Source of the DNA: Rhodocyclaceae bacterium
Lineage (GTDB): Bacteria; Pseudomonadota; Gammaproteobacteria; Burkholderiales; Rhodocyclaceae
Direction: 5' to 3'
NCBI GenBank assembly: GCA_013388985.1
Contig: JACAEF010000001.1
Span: 1-55,673 of the forward strand
DNA length: 55,673 nt
The notes under the pieces were generated by a model. That model saw only the letters and a program-made list of their open reading frames with translations, had not been told where the DNA came from and ran no database searches. Position 1 is the stretch's first letter; each line of letters starts with the position of its first letter. The position numbers and the translations under genes were made by a program. Below are positions 24,051 to 29,863 of the stretch, one piece after another.

Positions 24051-24596
24051 TTATGGCAGTTCCGCCCGATCAAAAAACGGCGCGGCGGCGTCCTTGGCGG
24101 CGAGGATCGGCTCGCCGTCGAGCGGCCAGGGGATGGCAAGGGCCGGGTCGTCCCAGCGAATGGCGCGCTCGTGCTCGGGGGAATAGTAGTCGGTGGTCTT
24201 GTAGAGAAATTCGGCGGTGTCGGAGAGCGTGAGAAAGCCGTGGGCGAAGCCAGGGGGGATCCAGAGCTGCTTTTTGTTTTCGGCGGAGAGGATTTCGCCG
24301 ACCCAGCGGCCGAAGGTGGACGAGGATCGGCGCAGGTCGACGGCGACGTCGAAGACTTCGCCTTGCACCACGCGCACGAGTTTGCCTTGCGCCTTGGGCG
24401 GCAGCTGGTAGTGCAGGCCGCGCAGCACGCCTTTGACGCTTTTCGAGTGATTGTCCTGCACGAAGGCGGGATCGAGTCCGGTGGCGGCCTTGAAGGCCTG
24501 GCGGTTGTAGCTCTCGAAAAAGAAGCCGCGCGCATCACCGAAGACTTTCGGCTCGAGGAGCAGCACGTCGGGGATGGCGGTGGGGGTGGCCTTCAT
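24051..24596 (-). CDS. rmlC: dTDP-4-dehydrorhamnose 3,5-epimerase
   Basis: A 181-aa cupin that epimerises dTDP-4-keto-6-deoxyglucose at C3 and C5. Landmarks: MKATPTAIPDVLLLEPKVFG, GFFFESYN, QDNHSKSVKGVLRGLHYQ (catalytic His in RGLHYQ), GKLVRVVQGEVFDVAVDLRRSS, WIPPGFAHGFLTLSD and the Tyr-containing YKTTDYYSPEHERAIRWDDP. All typical and full length. It starts in an ATGA overlap with the VapC toxin upstream. Of the four rml genes here it is the last in the operon. Confidence 0.95.
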   Translation of the reverse strand: MKATPTAIPDVLLLEPKVFGDARGFFFESYNRQAFKAATGLDPAFVQDNHSKSVKGVLRGLHYQLPPKAQGKLVRVVQGEVFDVAVDLRRSSSTFGRWVGEILSAENKKQLWIPPGFAHGFLTLSDTAEFLYKTTDYYSPEHERAIRWDDPALAIPWPLDGEPILAAKDAAAPFFDRAELP

Positions 24597-25027
24597 CAGG
24601 CAATCACGGTGAGGTTGGCCTGGCTGGCGCCCGTGACGGCTTGCAAGGGGATGCCCTTATCGAGCGTCACCAGCCGGCCCTGGTGCTTCACGGCCAGCGC
24701 CAAGAGATACGCATCAGTCACCTGGCGCGAACCGAGAATGTGGTGCCAGTCGATCAGGCCGGGCGTCAATAGGCTGATATCGTCTTCCCAAAATTGATGT
24801 AGCGGTAACGCAGCCGCTTCCTGCAAGCGTTCAGCCACGGCACCCGCCGGCACCGGATTGGGATATCGCGGCTGCGACATGATGCGGATGCAGCCATTTT
24901 GCGTGAGAGGGCAGGATGCCCAGCCGGACGCTGCATTTTCTTCCATCCACTCGGTAGCGCGGCGATGGTGCACGTGGTGGGCATCCAGCAATGCGATCAG
25001 CACATTCACATCGAGCAAGGCTCGCAT
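24596..25027 (-). CDS. VapC-type PIN toxin
   Basis: A 143-aa PIN-domain RNase: MRALLDVNVLIALLDAHHVHH (first catalytic Asp in LLDVN), central Glu/Asn region SCPLTQNGCIRIM, and ILGSRQVTDAYLLALAVKHQ with the third acidic residue, ending LVTLDKG. 'SCPLTQNG' and 'QVTDAYLLALA' mark the TIGR00028-like VapC group. The ATG at 25027 overlaps the antitoxin stop by one base; a TTG at 25030 is an alternative. Its own stop overlaps the rmlC start (ATGA), so toxin and rhamnose gene are coupled. Confidence 0.9.
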   Translation of the reverse strand: MRALLDVNVLIALLDAHHVHHRRATEWMEENAASGWASCPLTQNGCIRIMSQPRYPNPVPAGAVAERLQEAAALPLHQFWEDDISLLTPGLIDWHHILGSRQVTDAYLLALAVKHQGRLVTLDKGIPLQAVTGASQANLTVIA

Positions 25028-25269
25028 CAAACGCCTTCCTGCTCGCGTAAGGCATTGACTTCGTCGTTGGTGACGAGCTTGCCGCCGCCCGTGAAGGGTC
25101 GAAACCCCGCTACGGATGCTCTGCCGCCCTCGCGCTGCGGGCTCGCCTGGCCCGTCAATGCCTCCCGCAGGAGCTGGGAGACGATCTGACCCGCTGATTT
25201 TCTCTGCTGCCGCGCCAATGACTTGGCGGCATTCAACACGTCCTCGTCGATATCCAGTGTCGTCCTCAT
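25027..25269 (-). CDS. VapB-type ribbon-helix-helix antitoxin
   Basis: An 80-aa antitoxin. MRTTLDIDEDVLNAAKSLAR is a classic RHH N-terminus; the middle QRKSAGQIVSQLLREALTG completes the fold. The tail GFRPFTGGGKLVTNDEVNAL is the toxin-inhibiting segment typical of VapB partners of the downstream PIN group. The start at 25269 is the natural beginning of the RHH strand; six further codons upstream are open. The 69 bp before it, down to the PIN gene stop, is short and AT-richer, possibly its promoter. Confidence 0.88.
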   Translation of the reverse strand: MRTTLDIDEDVLNAAKSLARQQRKSAGQIVSQLLREALTGQASPQREGGRASVAGFRPFTGGGKLVTNDEVNALREQEGV

Positions 25270-25338
25270 GGCTTGCCCTATCATCAACGCATCATGATGC
25301 TATCACATCGTGATCCGCAAAATTTGCAACTTTTGATG

Positions 25339-25767
25339 TCAAAGGCCACCATGCCGTGCCCAGAATTGCGCCGGTGTCACGATCGGATAACGGTCGGCCA
25401 AGGCCAGCAAGTCTTTGTCGCCGGTGATCAGGCAGAGTGTCTCGTTACCGGCCTCGAGCGCGGCAAGCAACGCTCCCAATACGGGGATATCGCAAGCGTC
25501 GCCTAACAACGCCACATCCTCTTCACGCGGTTCGACCAGTTCGCATTGCAGGGCCAGAATGTCGACGAAGTCGTCCATTTCCGCAGGCGTCATGCCGTGA
25601 CGCCCTGCAAGCCGCGGCAGCACGCGACGTAATTCGTCGATGATGAAACCGGACAGAATGACCTCGATGGACCCCAGTGACCATGCCGAAACGATGCGCC
25701 CCGGGATGCTGCCAGGATAAGCGATGCCGGAAAGCAGGACATTCGTGTCGAGTACGACACGAATCAT
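25339..25767 (-). CDS. PIN-domain toxin (TIGR00305-like)
   Basis: A 142-aa PIN protein of the 'putative toxin-antitoxin system toxin component, PIN family' type. It has MIRVVLDTNVLLSGIAYPGS, VILSGFIIDELRRVLPRL, DIPVLGALLAALEAGNETLC and LITGDKDLLAL, that is, the four acidic positions of the family. A longer in-frame extension upstream lies in the antitoxin gene and is rejected. It starts 2 bp after the Phd-like gene stop. Acts as an RNase by family analogy. Confidence 0.88.
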   Translation of the reverse strand: MIRVVLDTNVLLSGIAYPGSIPGRIVSAWSLGSIEVILSGFIIDELRRVLPRLAGRHGMTPAEMDDFVDILALQCELVEPREEDVALLGDACDIPVLGALLAALEAGNETLCLITGDKDLLALADRYPIVTPAQFWARHGGL

Positions 25768-25769
25768 TT

Positions 25770-26039
25770 TTACTTGCGTCGTTCCGCAGCGACCGCAGCG
25801 TCGATTTCGGCCAGACCTTCGGCTTCGGGAACTCCGGCAAACCCGCTCTCGATGCGCCGGCAGAGCTCGTCGAAACGCCCTTGCATCCGCCGGATGCGCT
25901 CGAACAGGCGCGCATCCACCAGCGCCGCCACCGGTTTGCCGTCTTTTTTGATCAACACGCTGTCGCGGCGAAACTGAACGAGATTCAGCATTTCGCCGAG
26001 GTTCTTGCGAAAGGTGACGGCATTGGTTTCGGTAATCAT
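25770..26039 (-). CDS. Phd/YefM-family antitoxin
   Basis: An 89-aa antitoxin. ITETNAVTFRKNLGEMLNLV and VLIKKDGKPVAALVDARLFE are the Phd/YefM dimerisation and DNA-binding fold. The C-terminal half (IRRMQGRFDELCRRIESGF) is helical and should contact the PIN toxin encoded 2 bp downstream. It begins 37 bp after the rmlA stop; this short gap includes AT-rich sequence that could hold its promoter. PIN toxins with Phd antitoxins are a known combination. Confidence 0.88.
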   Translation of the reverse strand: MITETNAVTFRKNLGEMLNLVQFRRDSVLIKKDGKPVAALVDARLFERIRRMQGRFDELCRRIESGFAGVPEAEGLAEIDAAVAAERRK

Positions 26040-26076
26040 GGCAATCTGACCAGAATGATCGTTTCGACCATATCAA

Positions 26077-26958
26077 TCATAACACCCGTTCCTCGATCAG
26101 CCGCAACAGATACTGCCCATAGCCATTCTTCGCCAGCGGCTGGGCGAGCTTCCTCACCTGGTCGGCGTCGATCCAACCCTGACGGAAGGCGATTTCCTCG
26201 GGGCAGGCGACTTTGAGCCCCTGGCGTTTTTCGAGGGTGGCGATGAATTGCCCGGCTTCGAGCAGGCTGTCGTGCGTGCCGGTGTCGAGCCAGGCGTAGC
26301 CGCGGCCCATGATCTCGACGTCGAGCTGGCCGGCTTCGAGGTAGAGGCGATTGAGGTCGGTGATTTCCAGCTCGCCGCGCGCCGAGGGTTTGAGCGATCT
26401 CGCCCGCTCGACCACATGGCGGTCGTAGAAGTAGAGGCCGGTGACCGCGTAGCTGGATTTGGGCTGGCGCGGTTTTTCTTCGATGCTGATCGCGCGGCCC
26501 GCGGCATCGAATTCGACGACGCCATAGCGTTCCGGATCCTGCACGTGATAGGCGAAGACGGTGGCGCCCTCGCTGCGCGCGCCGGCGCGCTCGAGCTGGA
26601 CGTGCAGATCGTGGCCGTAGAAGATGTTGTCGCCGAGCACCAGGGTGCAGGGACTCTCGCCGATGAAGTCGGCGCCGATGAGGAAGGCCTGCGCCAGCCC
26701 TTCGGGCTTGGGCTGCACGGCGTATTCGAGCTCGAGGCCCCACTGGCTGCCGTCGCCGAGTAGCTGCGCGAAGCGTGGCGTGTCCTGCGGCGTGGAGATG
26801 ATCAGAATCTCGCGGATACCCCCCAGCATCAGCGTGGAGAGTGGGTAGTAGATCATCGGTTTGTCATACACCGGCAGGAGCTGCTTGGAGACCGACAGCG
26901 TGGCCGGATGCAGGCGCGTGCCGGCGCCGCCGGCGAGGATGAGGCCTTTGCGGGTCAC
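26077..26958 (-). CDS. rmlA: Glucose-1-phosphate thymidylyltransferase
   Basis: A 293-aa nucleotidyltransferase making dTDP-glucose. It carries [54 protein letters not shown] (metal Asp), VTGLYFYD and [20 protein letters not shown]: canonical RmlA, full length. The start is GTG, overlapping the DUF2442 stop (GTGA). Codons 1-12 are a second copy of sequence also present at 27523-27559, where the start codon is ATG. The current gene seems to have been rebuilt by a duplication that accompanied insertion of the DUF4160-DUF2442 module. Confidence 0.95.
26921..26957. repeat. 37-bp direct repeat, rmlA-proximal copy
   Basis: Exactly identical over 37 bp to 27523-27559. It covers the first 12 codons of rmlA except the first base of the start codon (here GTG, there ATG). 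The two copies bracket 565 bp containing the DUF4160 and DUF2442 genes. Confidence 0.95.
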
Positions 26959-27233
26959 GCGGCCATCTCCACGGATGGCCTTAGGTAGACAGGCACTTTG
27001 CCAGTCGCCAGTTCGTAAAGGGTTTCCGGTGACACATCAAAGCCGCAGGGCCACACGAGCGTTGGCCAGTCATCCAGTTGGAATGCCGCGAACGTCGCGG
27101 TATCGTGCAGGGGTGCTGCAGCCGGATAGTTGCTCACCAGGTCCGCAAGGTCGACTTCCCCCGCCTCACCCGTATTGAACTCGACCCAAAGCTTGTGGCC
27201 GGACAGATACTTTGCTGATTTGACGGCAATCAT
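26955..27233 (-). CDS. DUF2442-like protein (TA-like module)
   Basis: A 92-aa protein resembling DUF2442: [33 protein letters not shown], and a late [20 protein letters not shown], the 'W....I.P..LY' pattern of this family. Such genes are usually found directly after DUF4160 genes, as here (8-bp gap). The pair is widely suspected to be a toxin-antitoxin or mobile stability module, but its mechanism is not established. The stop overlaps the rmlA GTG start. The module is inserted within a duplicated rmlA 5' end. Confidence 0.8.
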
Positions 27234-27241
27234 CTTTCCTC

Positions 27242-27490
27242 CTAAACCAATGGCTCGATCTTATGAAAGTCCTTGCTTTCCCACATCGCGAGCAATTCCG
27301 CCGTGTGCATTTCAGCCCATTCCTCGACAAGACCACGGACACGCGCAGGAAGGTATCCTGCCAACACGTTGCCATTTTCTATCGCCATGACGGCTCTGTG
27401 TTCGTTGTAGCGGACATGGATATGGGGCGGGTTGTGTTCGTCGAAATACATGCAAATTACAATCCCCAGAAATCGGCTGATTTCAGGCAT
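27242..27490 (-). CDS. DUF4160-like protein (TA-like module)
   Basis: An 82-aa protein matching DUF4160: MPEISRFLGIVICMYFDEHN then PPHIHVRYNEHRAVMAIENG, the characteristic 'F.EH.PPHIHV.Y' block, and a short helix LVEEWAEMHTAELLAMWE. It is the usual partner of DUF2442. Its ATG overlaps the stop of a 25-codon remnant of rmlA (ATGCCTGA), so it may be translated by coupling from the old rmlA start signals. No function is assigned; the conserved His residues suggest a metal or active site. Confidence 0.82.
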   Translation of the reverse strand: MPEISRFLGIVICMYFDEHNPPHIHVRYNEHRAVMAIENGNVLAGYLPARVRGLVEEWAEMHTAELLAMWESKDFHKIEPLV

Positions 27491-27560
27491 AAGCGCATCC
27501 TGACGACGATGATCGACACACTCCGGCGCCGCCGGCGAGGATGAGGCCTTTGCGGGTCAT
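27483..27560 (-). pseudogene. Truncated rmlA 5' remnant (25 codons)
   Basis: Starting at ATG 27560, the first 12 codons read [12 protein letters not shown], identical to RmlA. They are followed by a foreign tail (GVCRSSSSGCAYA) and a stop overlapping the DUF4160 start. This is the original start of rmlA, 10 bp downstream of hepT, cut off by insertion of the DUF4160-DUF2442 module. It may now act as a leader peptide. Confidence 0.8.
27523..27559. repeat. 37-bp direct repeat, rmlA-distal copy
   Basis: Exact match to 26921-26957. It retains the ATG start and the hepT-adjacent context, so this is probably the original junction and the rmlA-proximal copy is the duplicate. Confidence 0.95.
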
Positions 27561-27570
27561 AAGCGTCATG

Positions 27571-28029
27571 TCAAGCGGAAATCAGTCGCCGGGCGACGGC
27601 AACGAGGGAGGGCACGAAGACATGCGCGGCTTCGAGCGCCGAAGCCAGCACGAGCGGATCCTCGACATACTCATGCACCATTTGGTTGCGCAGCTTGCGC
27701 ATGTCGATCCAGGCCTGGGCATCGTCGATCAGGCCAAGCCGCTCGGCGCGGTCGAGGTTGTCGACGAAGGTGGCTAGGCGCTCGCCATGCGCCGCCAGGT
27801 AAGCGGGCAGCAGCTTGTCGCCCACGGTGTCTTGCAGACGGCCAAAGCGGGAGACGAAGGCCTCGACCCGCTCGGCGAGGTCCTCGTCTTCGGCGAGCGA
27901 GCAGGCGCGTTCCACAGTGAAGGGCTGCGCGAACAAGCGGCGGTCAGTGGTTTCCAGGCGCGCGATTTCCCGCTCGACGAGGCGCACGAGCATTTGCAGA
28001 CGCGCAGCGGCGCGCGGATCGACGATCAC
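27571..28029 (-). CDS. HepT-like toxin
   Basis: A 152-aa HepT-family protein: all-helical, with the terminal block IDMRKLRNQMVHEYVEDPLV. That contains the RNxMVHEY version of the Rx4-6H HEPN-type motif. Upstream helices (LQDTVGDKLLPAYLAAHGE, FVDNLDRAERLGLIDDAQAW) fit the family. The partner MntA-type nucleotidyltransferase is encoded just upstream with a 4-bp overlap; in studied MntA-HepT pairs the antitoxin AMPylates the toxin near its catalytic Arg. Length normal. Confidence 0.88.
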   Translation of the reverse strand: MIVDPRAAARLQMLVRLVEREIARLETTDRRLFAQPFTVERACSLAEDEDLAERVEAFVSRFGRLQDTVGDKLLPAYLAAHGERLATFVDNLDRAERLGLIDDAQAWIDMRKLRNQMVHEYVEDPLVLASALEAAHVFVPSLVAVARRLISA

Positions 28030-28325
28030 AGCGCCACCCCCTGCCTGCGCGCGGCTTCGTGGATCGGCAGCGAGAGCAGATTCGGCGCGGCGAGCACGAC
28101 ATCGACCTTGCGCCCGTCGAGCGCGCGGCTCACACGCCCGGCGATGCGTGCCGCCAGGGGAGCCGGTGCTTCGACGGCATGAGGAACCTCCACCAGCAGA
28201 TCGACATCGCCCCCTTTGGCCGTGTCATCCAGACGCGATCCAAAGAGGCGCACGATGGCATCGTCGCCCGCCAATTCGGCGACGATGGCGCGTATGTTCG
28301 CGATTTGTTGCGCTGTCAGCCGCAT
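28026..28325 (-). CDS. MntA-like nucleotidyltransferase antitoxin
   Basis: A 99-aa minimal nucleotidyltransferase. VRLFGSRLDDTAKGGDVDLLVEV holds the GSx10DxD motif needed for nucleotide transfer, followed by GRKVDVVLAAPNLLSLPIHE for the third Asp. It lies between rmlD (3-bp gap) and hepT (4-bp overlap). By family it neutralises HepT through adenylylation. Confidence 0.9.
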   Translation of the reverse strand: MRLTAQQIANIRAIVAELAGDDAIVRLFGSRLDDTAKGGDVDLLVEVPHAVEAPAPLAARIAGRVSRALDGRKVDVVLAAPNLLSLPIHEAARRQGVAL

Positions 28326-28328
28326 GGC

Positions 28329-29243
28329 TCACCGATCCGATAGGAGCTGAATCATGACATGTCGCAACCCCTGCCGCCAGTCGGGCAGCACGAGGCCGAA
28401 GGTATTCCGCAGCTTCGTCGTGTCGAGGCAGGAGTTGGCCCGCCGACGGGCCGGCAGCGGATAGTCGGCGGTGGTGATGGCCTGGATGTCCTCCGGGCCG
28501 AGCTTGAGCGGCTTGCCCGCAGTCCGGGCCAGGCGCACGACCTCCTGGGCGTATTCATGCCAGCTCGTGCGGCTGCCGGCGGTAAGGTGGTAAAGCCCAT
28601 ACGCAAAATCGGCGCTGGCGGGACGGCACCGCAGGTATTGGCCAAGAATCTGCGCGGTGACGTCGGCGATCAGCGCGGCGGAAGTCGGCGCACCGAACTG
28701 GTCGGCGACGATCTTGAGGCTTTCGCGCTCGGCGGCGAGCCGGAGCATGGTCTTGGCGAAATTGCCGCCATGCGCGCCGAACACCCAGCTGGTGCGAAAG
28801 ATCAGGTGCTTCGCGCCGCTCGCGATCAATGCCTGCTCGCCGGCGAGCTTGGTGCGGCCATAGACGTTGAGCGGGTTCGGCGCATCGTCTTCGGTGTAGG
28901 GACCGGTCTTCGTGCCGTCGAAGACATAGTCGGTGGAGTAATGCACGACGAGCGCATCGAGTCTTTTCGCTTCCTCGCCGAAGAGGCCGGGTGCCACGCC
29001 ATTGATCGCCTGCGCGAGTGCCGGTTCGGCCTCTGCCTTGTCCACGGCGGTGTAAGCGGCCGGGTTGACGATGATCTGCGGTTCGACCTCTTTCACCAGG
29101 CGACGGATCGCGTCGGGCTGGGCAAGGTCGCAGTCGGCATGATCGACGGCGACGATCTCGCCCAAGGGGGCGAGCGCGCGCTGCAGCTCGAAGCCGACCT
29201 GGCCGTTCTTGCCGGTGAGCAGGATTGTTGCGCTACACCCCAT
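28329..29243 (-). CDS. rmlD: dTDP-4-dehydrorhamnose reductase with repeat-derived segment
   Basis: A 304-aa SDR making dTDP-L-rhamnose with NAD(P)H. ILLTGKNGQVGFELQRAL is the Rossmann start; VHYSTDYVFDGTKTGPYTE, NVYGRTKLAGEQALI (YxxxK), FRTSWVFG and LDTTKLRNTFGLVLPDW are RmlD landmarks. The stretch CRPASADF before YGLYHLTAGSRTSWHEYA is encoded by the dispersed 25-bp unit 28605-28629 and seems to lengthen a surface loop by several residues. It lies 12 bp after the HigA-like gene and 3 bp before mntA. Confidence 0.93.
   Translation of the reverse strand: MGCSATILLTGKNGQVGFELQRALAPLGEIVAVDHADCDLAQPDAIRRLVKEVEPQIIVNPAAYTAVDKAEAEPALAQAINGVAPGLFGEEAKRLDALVVHYSTDYVFDGTKTGPYTEDDAPNPLNVYGRTKLAGEQALIASGAKHLIFRTSWVFGAHGGNFAKTMLRLAAERESLKIVADQFGAPTSAALIADVTAQILGQYLRCRPASADFAYGLYHLTAGSRTSWHEYAQEVVRLARTAGKPLKLGPEDIQAITTADYPLPARRRANSCLDTTKLRNTFGLVLPDWRQGLRHVMIQLLSDR
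28605..28629. repeat. Dispersed 25-bp repeat, in frame in rmlD
   Basis: 24 of 25 bases match the consensus copy at 22073-22097. It is read on the minus strand as CRPASADF. Confidence 0.8.
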
Positions 29244-29255
29244 TCGCTTTACTGC

Positions 29256-29540
29256 TCACGCCGCCTCGAGCTCAACATGCACCCTCTGCCCCAGTCGAGT
29301 AGCGATGTTGACCAAGGCATCGAGGGAGAAACGGGAAATGCGTCCGCGCAGCAAGTCATTCATGCGCGGCTGGGTGATTCCACAGTGCCTGGCGGCTTCG
29401 ATCTGTGTCCAGCCATGCTCGGCAACGATACGCGAAATCTCGCGCATCAGATCGCAGCGAGCGCGCAGGTTGGCCGCCTCTTCTGGCGTGTCGGCAATTG
29501 CATCCCACACGTTGTCAAAAGTTTCGCTCTTGACGCTCAT
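29256..29540 (-). CDS. HigA-like XRE antitoxin
   Basis: A 94-aa protein with a helix-turn-helix: ISRIVAEHGWTQIEAARHCG then ITQPRMNDLLRGRISRFSLD, and a short C-terminal strand RVHVELEAA. This is the HTH_37/HigA2-like group which pairs with Gp49/HigB toxins. It follows the toxin gene with a 4-bp overlap (toxin first, the usual higBA order) and sits 12 bp before rmlD. Likely autorepressor and antitoxin. Confidence 0.88.
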   Translation of the reverse strand: MSVKSETFDNVWDAIADTPEEAANLRARCDLMREISRIVAEHGWTQIEAARHCGITQPRMNDLLRGRISRFSLDALVNIATRLGQRVHVELEAA

Positions 29541-29863
29541 GATATTGTCCTCTTCAGCTGCGCGAATCGCTCCTTTGCTAGCTCGATATCGGCTCTTGCT
29601 GTCTGCTGCGTCTTCTTCTGGAAAGCATGCAGCACGTAGACAGCATCAACAAGCCGCGCCGTGTAAACCACGCGGTAGGTACCCGCCTCGCTCCACACGC
29701 GCAACTCTTCCACGCCCGGCCCGATCGACGGCATCGGCTTGAAATCATCGGGCTGCTCACCGCGCTGCACACGATCCAATTGGAAACCGACATCTTGACG
29801 CGCGTCATCGGGAAATGCGCGCAATCGTTTGAGCGAATCGCCAAGGAAGCGAATCGGCTTCAT
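29537..29863 (-). CDS. HigB-like (Gp49/RelE superfamily) toxin
   Basis: A 108-aa RelE-superfamily toxin. FLGDSLKRLRAFPDDARQDV, the PMPSIGPGVEELRV strand, TYRVVYTARLVDAVYVLHAF and QKKTQQTARADIELAKERFA are characteristic of phage-derived Gp49-like HigB toxins, predicted to cut mRNA on the ribosome. A TATAAT lies only 6 nt before the ATG at 29863, suggesting either a leaderless message or an upstream promoter elsewhere. It is preceded by a palindrome at 29892-29914. Confidence 0.88.
   Translation of the reverse strand: MKPIRFLGDSLKRLRAFPDDARQDVGFQLDRVQRGEQPDDFKPMPSIGPGVEELRVWSEAGTYRVVYTARLVDAVYVLHAFQKKTQQTARADIELAKERFAQLKRTIS

Follow-up and report, generated by a model that had tools for sequence, protein, structure and literature searches.

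A putative toxin–antitoxin module lies between two copies of the rmlA start, and copies of gene ends recur beside related modules

In the rml cluster of a Rhodocyclaceae bacterium, a DUF4160-DUF2442 gene pair lies between two copies of the start of rmlA. The pair deviates in base composition from the genes around it, the junction in which it is found is usually empty in relatives, and copies of the ends of other neighbouring genes are found beside other modules of the same kind. The reading that we prefer, and regard with modest confidence as the probable one, is that a horizontally acquired addiction module of the DhiT/DhiA type was inserted at the 5′ end of rmlA along with a second copy of this end. 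Because the module would have come with this copy, rmlA would have been regenerated, and the displaced 12-codon start left upstream.

The window (here, the whole stretch of DNA analysed, 55,673 bp) contains the two copies as a direct repeat, identical over 37 bp, with a spacing of 602 bp and 565 bp lying between them (Table 1). A same-strand search of the window that left out 20-mers occurring at least 10 times found no other exact direct repeat as long, the next being 23 and 22 bp. The genes are all on the minus strand, in the order rmlD, an MNT/HEPN pair, the 12-codon rmlA start (with ATG), DUF4160, DUF2442 and the complete rmlA (with GTG). The outer copy is preceded by an A and so reads ATG ACC CGC..., departing from rmlA after 12 codons, while the inner copy is preceded by the G at 26958, reads GTG ACC CGC... 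and overlaps the TGA stop of DUF2442. The 37-bp identity, the 12 codons, the two start codons and the overlap with the DUF2442 stop had been described in the initial annotation, and are confirmed in the sequence. The interval, which was said there to hold only the two DUF genes, holds these and a 32-bp leader.

Table 1 Features of the rml region of the window, with the basis of each assignment.
Feature	Position	Strand	Basis
PIN	24596-25030		Pfam
Phd/YefM, just under cut-off, beside a PIN-like ORF (by reading)	25770-26039		
rmlA, glucose-1-phosphate thymidylyltransferase, whole length open, GTG start	26077..26958	-	TIGR01207 E 6.5e-159, above cut-off
Inner repeat copy, the rmlA start now used	26921..26957	-	sequence identity to outer copy
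DUF2442 / DhiA-like putative antitoxin gene, 92 aa	26955..27233	-	PF10387 E 2.9e-15; NF048016 antoxin_DhiA E 2.4e-6; G+C 0.58
DUF4160 / DhiT-like putative toxin gene, 82 aa	27242..27490	-	PF13711 E 1.2e-22; NF048015 toxin_DhiT E 1.1e-27; G+C 0.51
32-bp leader, rmlA remnant to DUF4160	27491..27522	-	53% G+C; outside alignment to module of G050 (nearest relative)
Outer (upstream) rmlA 5′-end remnant, ATG + first 12 codons, truncated	27523..27560	-	37-bp identity to 26921-26957; A at 27560
HEPN-like partner of nucleotidyltransferase; second module between rmlD and rmlA	27571..28029	-	PF08780 E 1.8e-5, TIGR01987 E 2.4e-7, both below cut-off
MNT-like minimal nucleotidyltransferase	28026..28325	-	PF01909 E 4.6e-6
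rmlD, probably ancestral upstream neighbour of rmlA	28329..29243	-	PF04321 E 9.7e-104; adjacency in relatives
HTH_37 with Gp49	29256-29863		

The two DUF genes are poorer in G+C than rmlA, rmlD and the HEPN and MNT genes (0.65-0.67). Over its first 30 bp, rmlA shares 97% identity with each of three congeners. Since the two copies in the window are also identical to each other, either could, from the window alone, be the one that arrived with the module. The match CGCTTATG ahead of both the rmlA and the DUF4160 start was judged to be due to chance. It is worth adding that the rml cluster as a whole (24596-29863) is crowded with toxin–antitoxin-like genes, DUF4160-DUF2442 and MNT/HEPN among them.

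On the basis of its predicted proteins, the pair is a putative type II toxin–antitoxin module, DhiT/DhiA-like (DUF4160-DUF2442). The DUF4160 domain scores 80.3 bits (PF13711, cut-off 23) and the DUF2442 domain, encoded directly downstream after an 8-bp gap, scores 56.7 bits (PF10387, cut-off 23.9). The NCBIfam equivalog cut-offs are missed, DhiT reaching 96.4 of 100 bits and DhiA 28.1 of 200 bits, and the window proteins are therefore described as relatives of DhiT and DhiA and not as the named equivalogs. The dhiTA system of Dickeya dadantii, in the passages describing it (PMC8198452), has the same order, with the DUF4160 toxin gene first, the DUF2442 antitoxin gene second and the two close together; overproduction of DhiT is there reported to inhibit growth, while that of DhiT with DhiA does not. 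It differs in that the window proteins fall under the NCBIfam cut-offs and that the antitoxin model is longer (160 positions). In a persistence module of Thermus plasmids both domains recur, arranged as in the window and at a similar length (87 + 92 aa, against 82 + 92 aa in the window). According to the parts of the report that deal with it, the Thermus pair stabilises plasmids and its second gene is needed for the first to be tolerated; it is plasmid-borne, and chromosomal insertion and repeats are not discussed for it in those parts (PMC12724237).

The nearest relative of the window module (in G050; 80% identity for the DUF4160 protein, 60% for DUF2442) is also inside an rml cluster, and has no flanking repeat beyond 8 bp. 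That cluster (L088, G050:C76:103500-115500), which is from another family, also contains MNT- and HEPN-like genes, and its DUF4160-DUF2442 pair adjoins an MNT-like gene.

An empty rmlA site, which the initial annotation had proposed looking for in related strains, is found in a congener, G018, where 4 bp separate the stop codon of rmlD from the ATG of rmlA and the rmlA protein is 84% identical to that of the window. Short gaps are also usual in named genomes. Of 80 named loci whose rmlA genes are close, 37 have an rmlD that could be located upstream on the same strand within 3 kb, and the gap is at most 167 bp in 35 of these, the other two being 829 and 843 bp. Two further genomes (G002 and G017, loci L036 and L037) carry closely similar 377-aa genes between rmlD and rmlA, identified by Pfam in G002 as an AAA_14/DUF4143 ATPase. 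Taken together, the short gaps and these other genes indicate that adjacency of rmlD and rmlA is the usual and probably the ancestral state, and that the junction receives insertions. No duplicated gene end is seen at the G002 and G017 junctions.

The duplicated rmlA start itself is found in this genome only, among the loci and genomes examined. At the DNA level, none of 60 other genomes searched had a DUF match joined to rmlA, and the rmlA insertion was not found there. Scoring of 45 other rmlA loci of relatives (some genomes being represented twice) gave one weak 24-bp match to the duplicated start, and the 80 named loci gave one weak 5′-end match (48 bp, 73%) and no 3′-end match. A match to the rmlA start near an MNT/HEPN pair (G006:C4) was considered as a travelling rmlA start and dropped; on reading of locus L034 it is the glycine-rich motif that begins a mannose-1-phosphate guanylyltransferase-like gene. 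Upstream of that gene, at L034 1446-1906, an MNT-like gene is accompanied by a shortened HEPN-like part.

The occurrence in a single genome, together with the identity and shortness of the two copies, is what would be expected of a one-off illegitimate event, in which, after a staggered break or a template switch at rmlA, 565 bp of foreign DNA were copied in and copying was taken up again 37 bp upstream, so that a duplication was left. The module would then have no tendency of its own to be found between such repeats. Other DUF4160-DUF2442 modules bear directly on this. Matches were present in 35 of 300 genomes searched in the order and in 102 of 370 searched in the class. These searches provided 143 loci, made up of the window, 46 from the order search (of 48 other places listed, one was unused and one is counted with the own genome), 93 from among the class-search matches listed, and 3 from the window's own genome. 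They contain 146 DUF4160 open frames. Leaving out 28 frames with no DUF2442 neighbour by profile gave 118 modules, from which one was dropped because it duplicated another or had less than 100 bp of flank. The remaining 117 are partly dependent, L113 and L148 for example being the same site in two congeners. Each was scored by the best local alignment of 500 bp upstream with 500 bp downstream, with a threshold of 18.

A direct flank repeat at this threshold is found at 19 of the 117 modules, and is absent from the other 98, which again fits a one-off event at rmlA. Controls at the same threshold are nevertheless much lower: inverted repeats in 1/117 modules, and 0/929 in cross-locus comparisons, whose maximum score is 14 as against 37 for the window pair. 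Gene flanks reach the threshold in 0/26 cases for rmlA, 0/21 for rpiA and 1/21 for ettA, and random intervals in 1/175 for the window (where the intervals overlap and are dependent) and 0/152 for rml loci, giving 2/395 for all further controls. Fisher p values, which treat the loci as independent (not fully true), are 9.8e-6 against inverted repeats, 8.1e-4 against the 68 gene flanks and 2.7e-11 against all 395. A threshold of 14 instead gives 21/117 modules, but also 14/175 of the overlapping random window intervals. With the window and three loci with attC-like repeats (below) left out, the comparison is 15/116 against 1/68 gene flanks (p 0.005). Five further loci with DUF4160 relatives (L304 and L305 of family f43, L306-L308 of genus g96) show no repeat bracketing the module. 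At HigB (PF05973) loci (n=30, with no matched control), repeats lie by their coordinates on both sides of HigB in L266 (36 bp, 92%) and L267 (59 bp, 75%), while in L269, L284 and L293 both copies are on one side.

Nine of the 19 repeats are ends of neighbouring genes, at eight sites with the window included. The expectation that other DUF4160-DUF2442 pairs would be flanked by copies of the neighbouring gene's end thus holds for 9/117 modules. Besides the exact 37 bp at the 5′ end of rmlA, there is a 5′ repeat at trpF (L160, 365 bp, partly upstream of the gene). The others are 3′ ends: ppc (L141, 170 bp, 92%), rpiA (L080, 64 bp, 98%), ruvC (50 bp, 86%, in L113 and its congener L148, the latter assigned by its likeness to L113), ettA (L067, 101 bp, 74%), a sugar-nucleotide epimerase-like gene (L077, 125 bp, 81%) and an N6/N4 DNA methylase (L058, 73 bp, 90%). 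In all of these gene-end cases the gene and the module have the same direction. The repeats differ from gene to gene in sequence as well as in length (37 to 365 bp), and by eye no common sequence is visible. A further six repeats are intergenic or unclear (L138, L130, L097, L056, L106, L094).

Three more (L177, L180 and L198) have TAAC or GTTA ends and look attC-like by eye, and for these 3/117 modules an integron origin comes to mind. That the window module is an integron gene cassette, placed at a secondary site, we consider extremely unlikely: its repeat, like those at the other gene ends, is coding gene sequence, here that of rmlA, and nothing attC-like is seen by eye around the module.

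The repeat flanking a DUF4160 module on contig 21 of the window's own genome (L084) was also tried as a gene end and rejected, as it is a dispersed repeat. This repeat, GTGCCGTCCCGCCAGCGCCGAYTTTGCG, occurs at 80 places in the genome (G000) with at most 2 mismatches, and its reversed pattern at none. It is present in 17 of 19 searched genomes of the genus, and its 18-bp core occurs at 11 places in the window, where 0.03 would be expected. One copy lies inside rmlD (window 28602-28629); the copies that bracket the module in L084 are at 1148-1172 and 1776-1800, 628 bp apart.

Flanking direct repeats, empty sites, modules lying close to the repeats and regeneration of the gene could all be produced by a transposase or site-specific recombinase acting in trans, the repeat being a target-site duplication or the gene end an attachment site. 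We think this very unlikely, given the range of lengths and the lack of any common sequence visible by eye among the gene-end repeats. Inverted flank repeats are no commoner than background, and the window insert contains no transposase or recombinase gene by its ORFs or by Pfam. For the same reasons, and in view of the many modules that have no repeat, the likeness to attachment sites drawn in the initial annotation is not supported. Its more general idea, of a mobile unit that regenerates the gene, is supported as a recurrent pattern, in which the end of the target is brought or generated in a further copy by the module and the gene stays whole.

If the gene-end copies came from elsewhere, the two copies at a site should derive from different living genes. 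Their differences fall at codon positions 1, 2 and 3 in numbers of 10, 15 and 50 without trpF (L160; p 3.8e-9 against an expectation of one third at position 3), and 23, 26 and 70 with it. A stricter expectation is about one half at position 3, as for an old local copy decaying beside a living gene. Against this, the third-position excess has p 0.0026 without trpF and 0.03 with it. Two single cases, and no others, pass the one-half test: ettA (3, 3, 20; p 0.0047) and the epimerase tails of G743 (0, 1, 8; p 0.02). Such a bias towards third positions suggests a foreign origin for one copy at ettA and for one of the two G743 tails.

Comparisons with relatives give further indications. At ettA, G150 and G315 are 0.95-0.97 identical just before the repeat, and 0.87 and then 0.71 identical within the gene-side copy; identity also drops to 0.70 in the middle of the gene body. 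The gene-side copy of G150 is 0.87 identical to G716, where the gene body reaches only 0.80, and the distal copy (0.83) is slightly nearer to G315 than the gene-side copy is (0.80). For ppc the tendency towards a native and a foreign copy is weak (distal 0.944 and gene side 0.913, against G385). With the epimerase of G201, overall identities favour neither assignment. The last codons of the epimerase, however, are of two types among 16 congeners, TS-type in five (G201, G736, G739, G740 and G745) and K-type in eleven. A DUF4160 module follows the TS-type gene end in G201, G736 and G739, and a TS-type tail copy in G743, while the distal copy in G201 is K-type. No module was detected at the TS-type ends of G740 and G745, and no distal copy at the modules of G736 and G739.

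At rpiA both filled and empty sites are available. G078, of the same genus, lacks the module, and the sequence that follows its rpiA matches the distal copy of G295 and what comes after it (83% over 429 bp, copy included). G704 shares the insertion (97%), its contig ending within it.

The ettA and epimerase sites contain arrays. After ettA in G315 there are a short ORF with no Pfam match and a PIN gene, then an exact tail copy of 32-33 bp. In G715, two tail copies divide the stretch after ettA. A zeta-toxin-like gene and its small ORF stand before the first copy (106 bp, 84%), a Phd/YefM and PIN pair lies between it and the second (40 bp, 92.5%), and an ORF and another PIN gene come after the second. 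These two were the loci with ettA tail copies among those of 16 relatives (1.5 kb flank), besides G150. In G743, a tail copy of the epimerase (105 bp, 91%) separates a DUF2281/PIN pair, next after the gene, from DUF4160-DUF2442 beyond. In G733 the epimerase is followed by a DUF1902/HicA pair and a remnant of the DUF module, and then by two tail copies (55 bp, 91%, and 39 bp, 95%) that enclose genes of unknown kind. Epimerase tail copies past the gene are present in 3 of 16 genomes (G201, G743 and G733), the contig being short in two or three. The arrays of G315, G715, G743 and G733 thus show unrelated toxin–antitoxin modules using the same gene tail in different species. Loci L309, L310, L362 and L370 are those with differing toxin–antitoxin modules set apart by ettA or epimerase tail copies.

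These observations weigh on the one-off event. Gene-end duplications recur at eight sites, the copies at ettA and in G743 look derived from different living genes, and arrays at two genes would require repeated events at one spot; we therefore consider a one-off event at rmlA somewhat unlikely. An alternative that does allow recurrence is selection only: modules would enter by any route, and only inserts that bear a duplication would leave healthy cells, with no role of the duplication in mobility. The duplicated part does restore the gene, the variable lengths fit random joints, and the third-position excess is marginal against one half once L160 is included. Left unexplained by selection alone are the foreign-looking gene-side tail at ettA, the arrays, and the presence of a TS-type epimerase tail ahead of the DUF4160 module in G201, G736, G739 and G743. 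We regard this alternative as unlikely in its pure form; it overlaps with the first of the two steps proposed below.

On the reading preferred here, entry of the module together with a gene-end copy, we propose that the first joining of module and gene would create the gene-end duplication. This could happen, for example, if homologous pairing within the gene on one side were combined with an illegitimate joint on the other, or by template switching, and insertions that destroyed the gene would be lost. Homology-facilitated illegitimate recombination is a possible source of such a first duplication. In a second step, a unit with two gene-end copies would enter a relative by homologous exchange of both with the recipient's single copy. 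The gene would remain whole but carry the end that came from the donor, and the end that had belonged to the recipient would be displaced to the far side. Repetition of this at one gene would lead to toxin–antitoxin arrays separated by copies of the gene tail. The sequence at rmlA would speak for the first step only; for the second, it is the ettA, epimerase and rpiA sites that are suggestive.

Extended to all the sites, the proposal is that unrelated toxin–antitoxin families travel as units of gene end plus module, in cassette arrays that need no integrase. The end of a housekeeping gene would be the homologous landing pad, the gene would be regenerated at each insertion and modules would pile up between tail copies, with rmlA as the 5′-end form. 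We put this forward tentatively, as a possibility that may well prove too broad.

How chromosomal toxin–antitoxin modules without a transposase spread is an open question, and gene-regenerating insertion with homologous arms would, if true, answer part of it. It would also help to explain why toxin–antitoxin modules sit tightly against housekeeping genes. The copies of neighbouring gene ends are a signature that can be counted across genomes, and the process could be tested in a naturally transformable strain. The same arrangement at other genes and in other bacteria hints at how selfish pairs spread without breaking their hosts. A literature search at the depth of listings and passages found no report of toxin–antitoxin modules inserted with gene-end copies.

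Several known systems resemble the arrangement in part. Integron cassette arrays are built from small modules added stepwise and separated by a repeated site. The stepwise modules and the repeated site are alike, whereas here the repeated element is a housekeeping-gene tail that changes from locus to locus, and the stretches read show neither an integrase nor, by eye, an attC. Prophages and islands restore a gene end at their attachment sites, and share with the present case the duplicated end and the intact gene; here, in contrast, the insert is tiny, with no integrase and no fixed core sequence seen. A transposon with a target-site duplication also fits poorly with a 37-bp repeat, lengths that vary among loci, inverted repeats at background and an insert with no transposase.

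The closest likeness is to insertion with long target duplication, reportedly described for restriction-modification genes by Nobusato et al. in 2000 (in Gene) and by Furuta et al. in 2010 (in NAR). According to the relevant passages of a 2013 review, some restriction-modification genes insert with long target duplications of variable length, of the order of 100 bp, and the mobility of toxin–antitoxin genes is treated there only in general terms (PMC3874152). Such insertion of restriction-modification genes is also referred to in PMC3031569, PMC1643837 and PMC2654758. In these accounts, as here, a small addiction-type complex with no transposase lies in the chromosome between direct repeats of its target, as inferred by comparison of related genomes. 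Direct repeats are present in our case (37 bp and exact at rmlA; 19/117 modules), and so are empty sites (rmlD-rmlA in G018, and rpiA in G078 for another module). The repeats there are variable and of the order of 100 bp; the repeat here is 37 bp long, and when all nine gene-end cases are taken the range is 37 to 365 bp. The insert there is a restriction-modification complex, as against a putative DUF4160-DUF2442 type II toxin–antitoxin pair. Here, moreover, the duplicated target is the end of a gene, which is kept whole by it, one copy looks foreign at some sites, and arrays share tail copies, the comparison with the restriction-modification cases resting on secondary accounts of them. The window case is thus probably a toxin–antitoxin variant of insertion with long target duplication in which the gene is regenerated, and it is part of a wider pattern.
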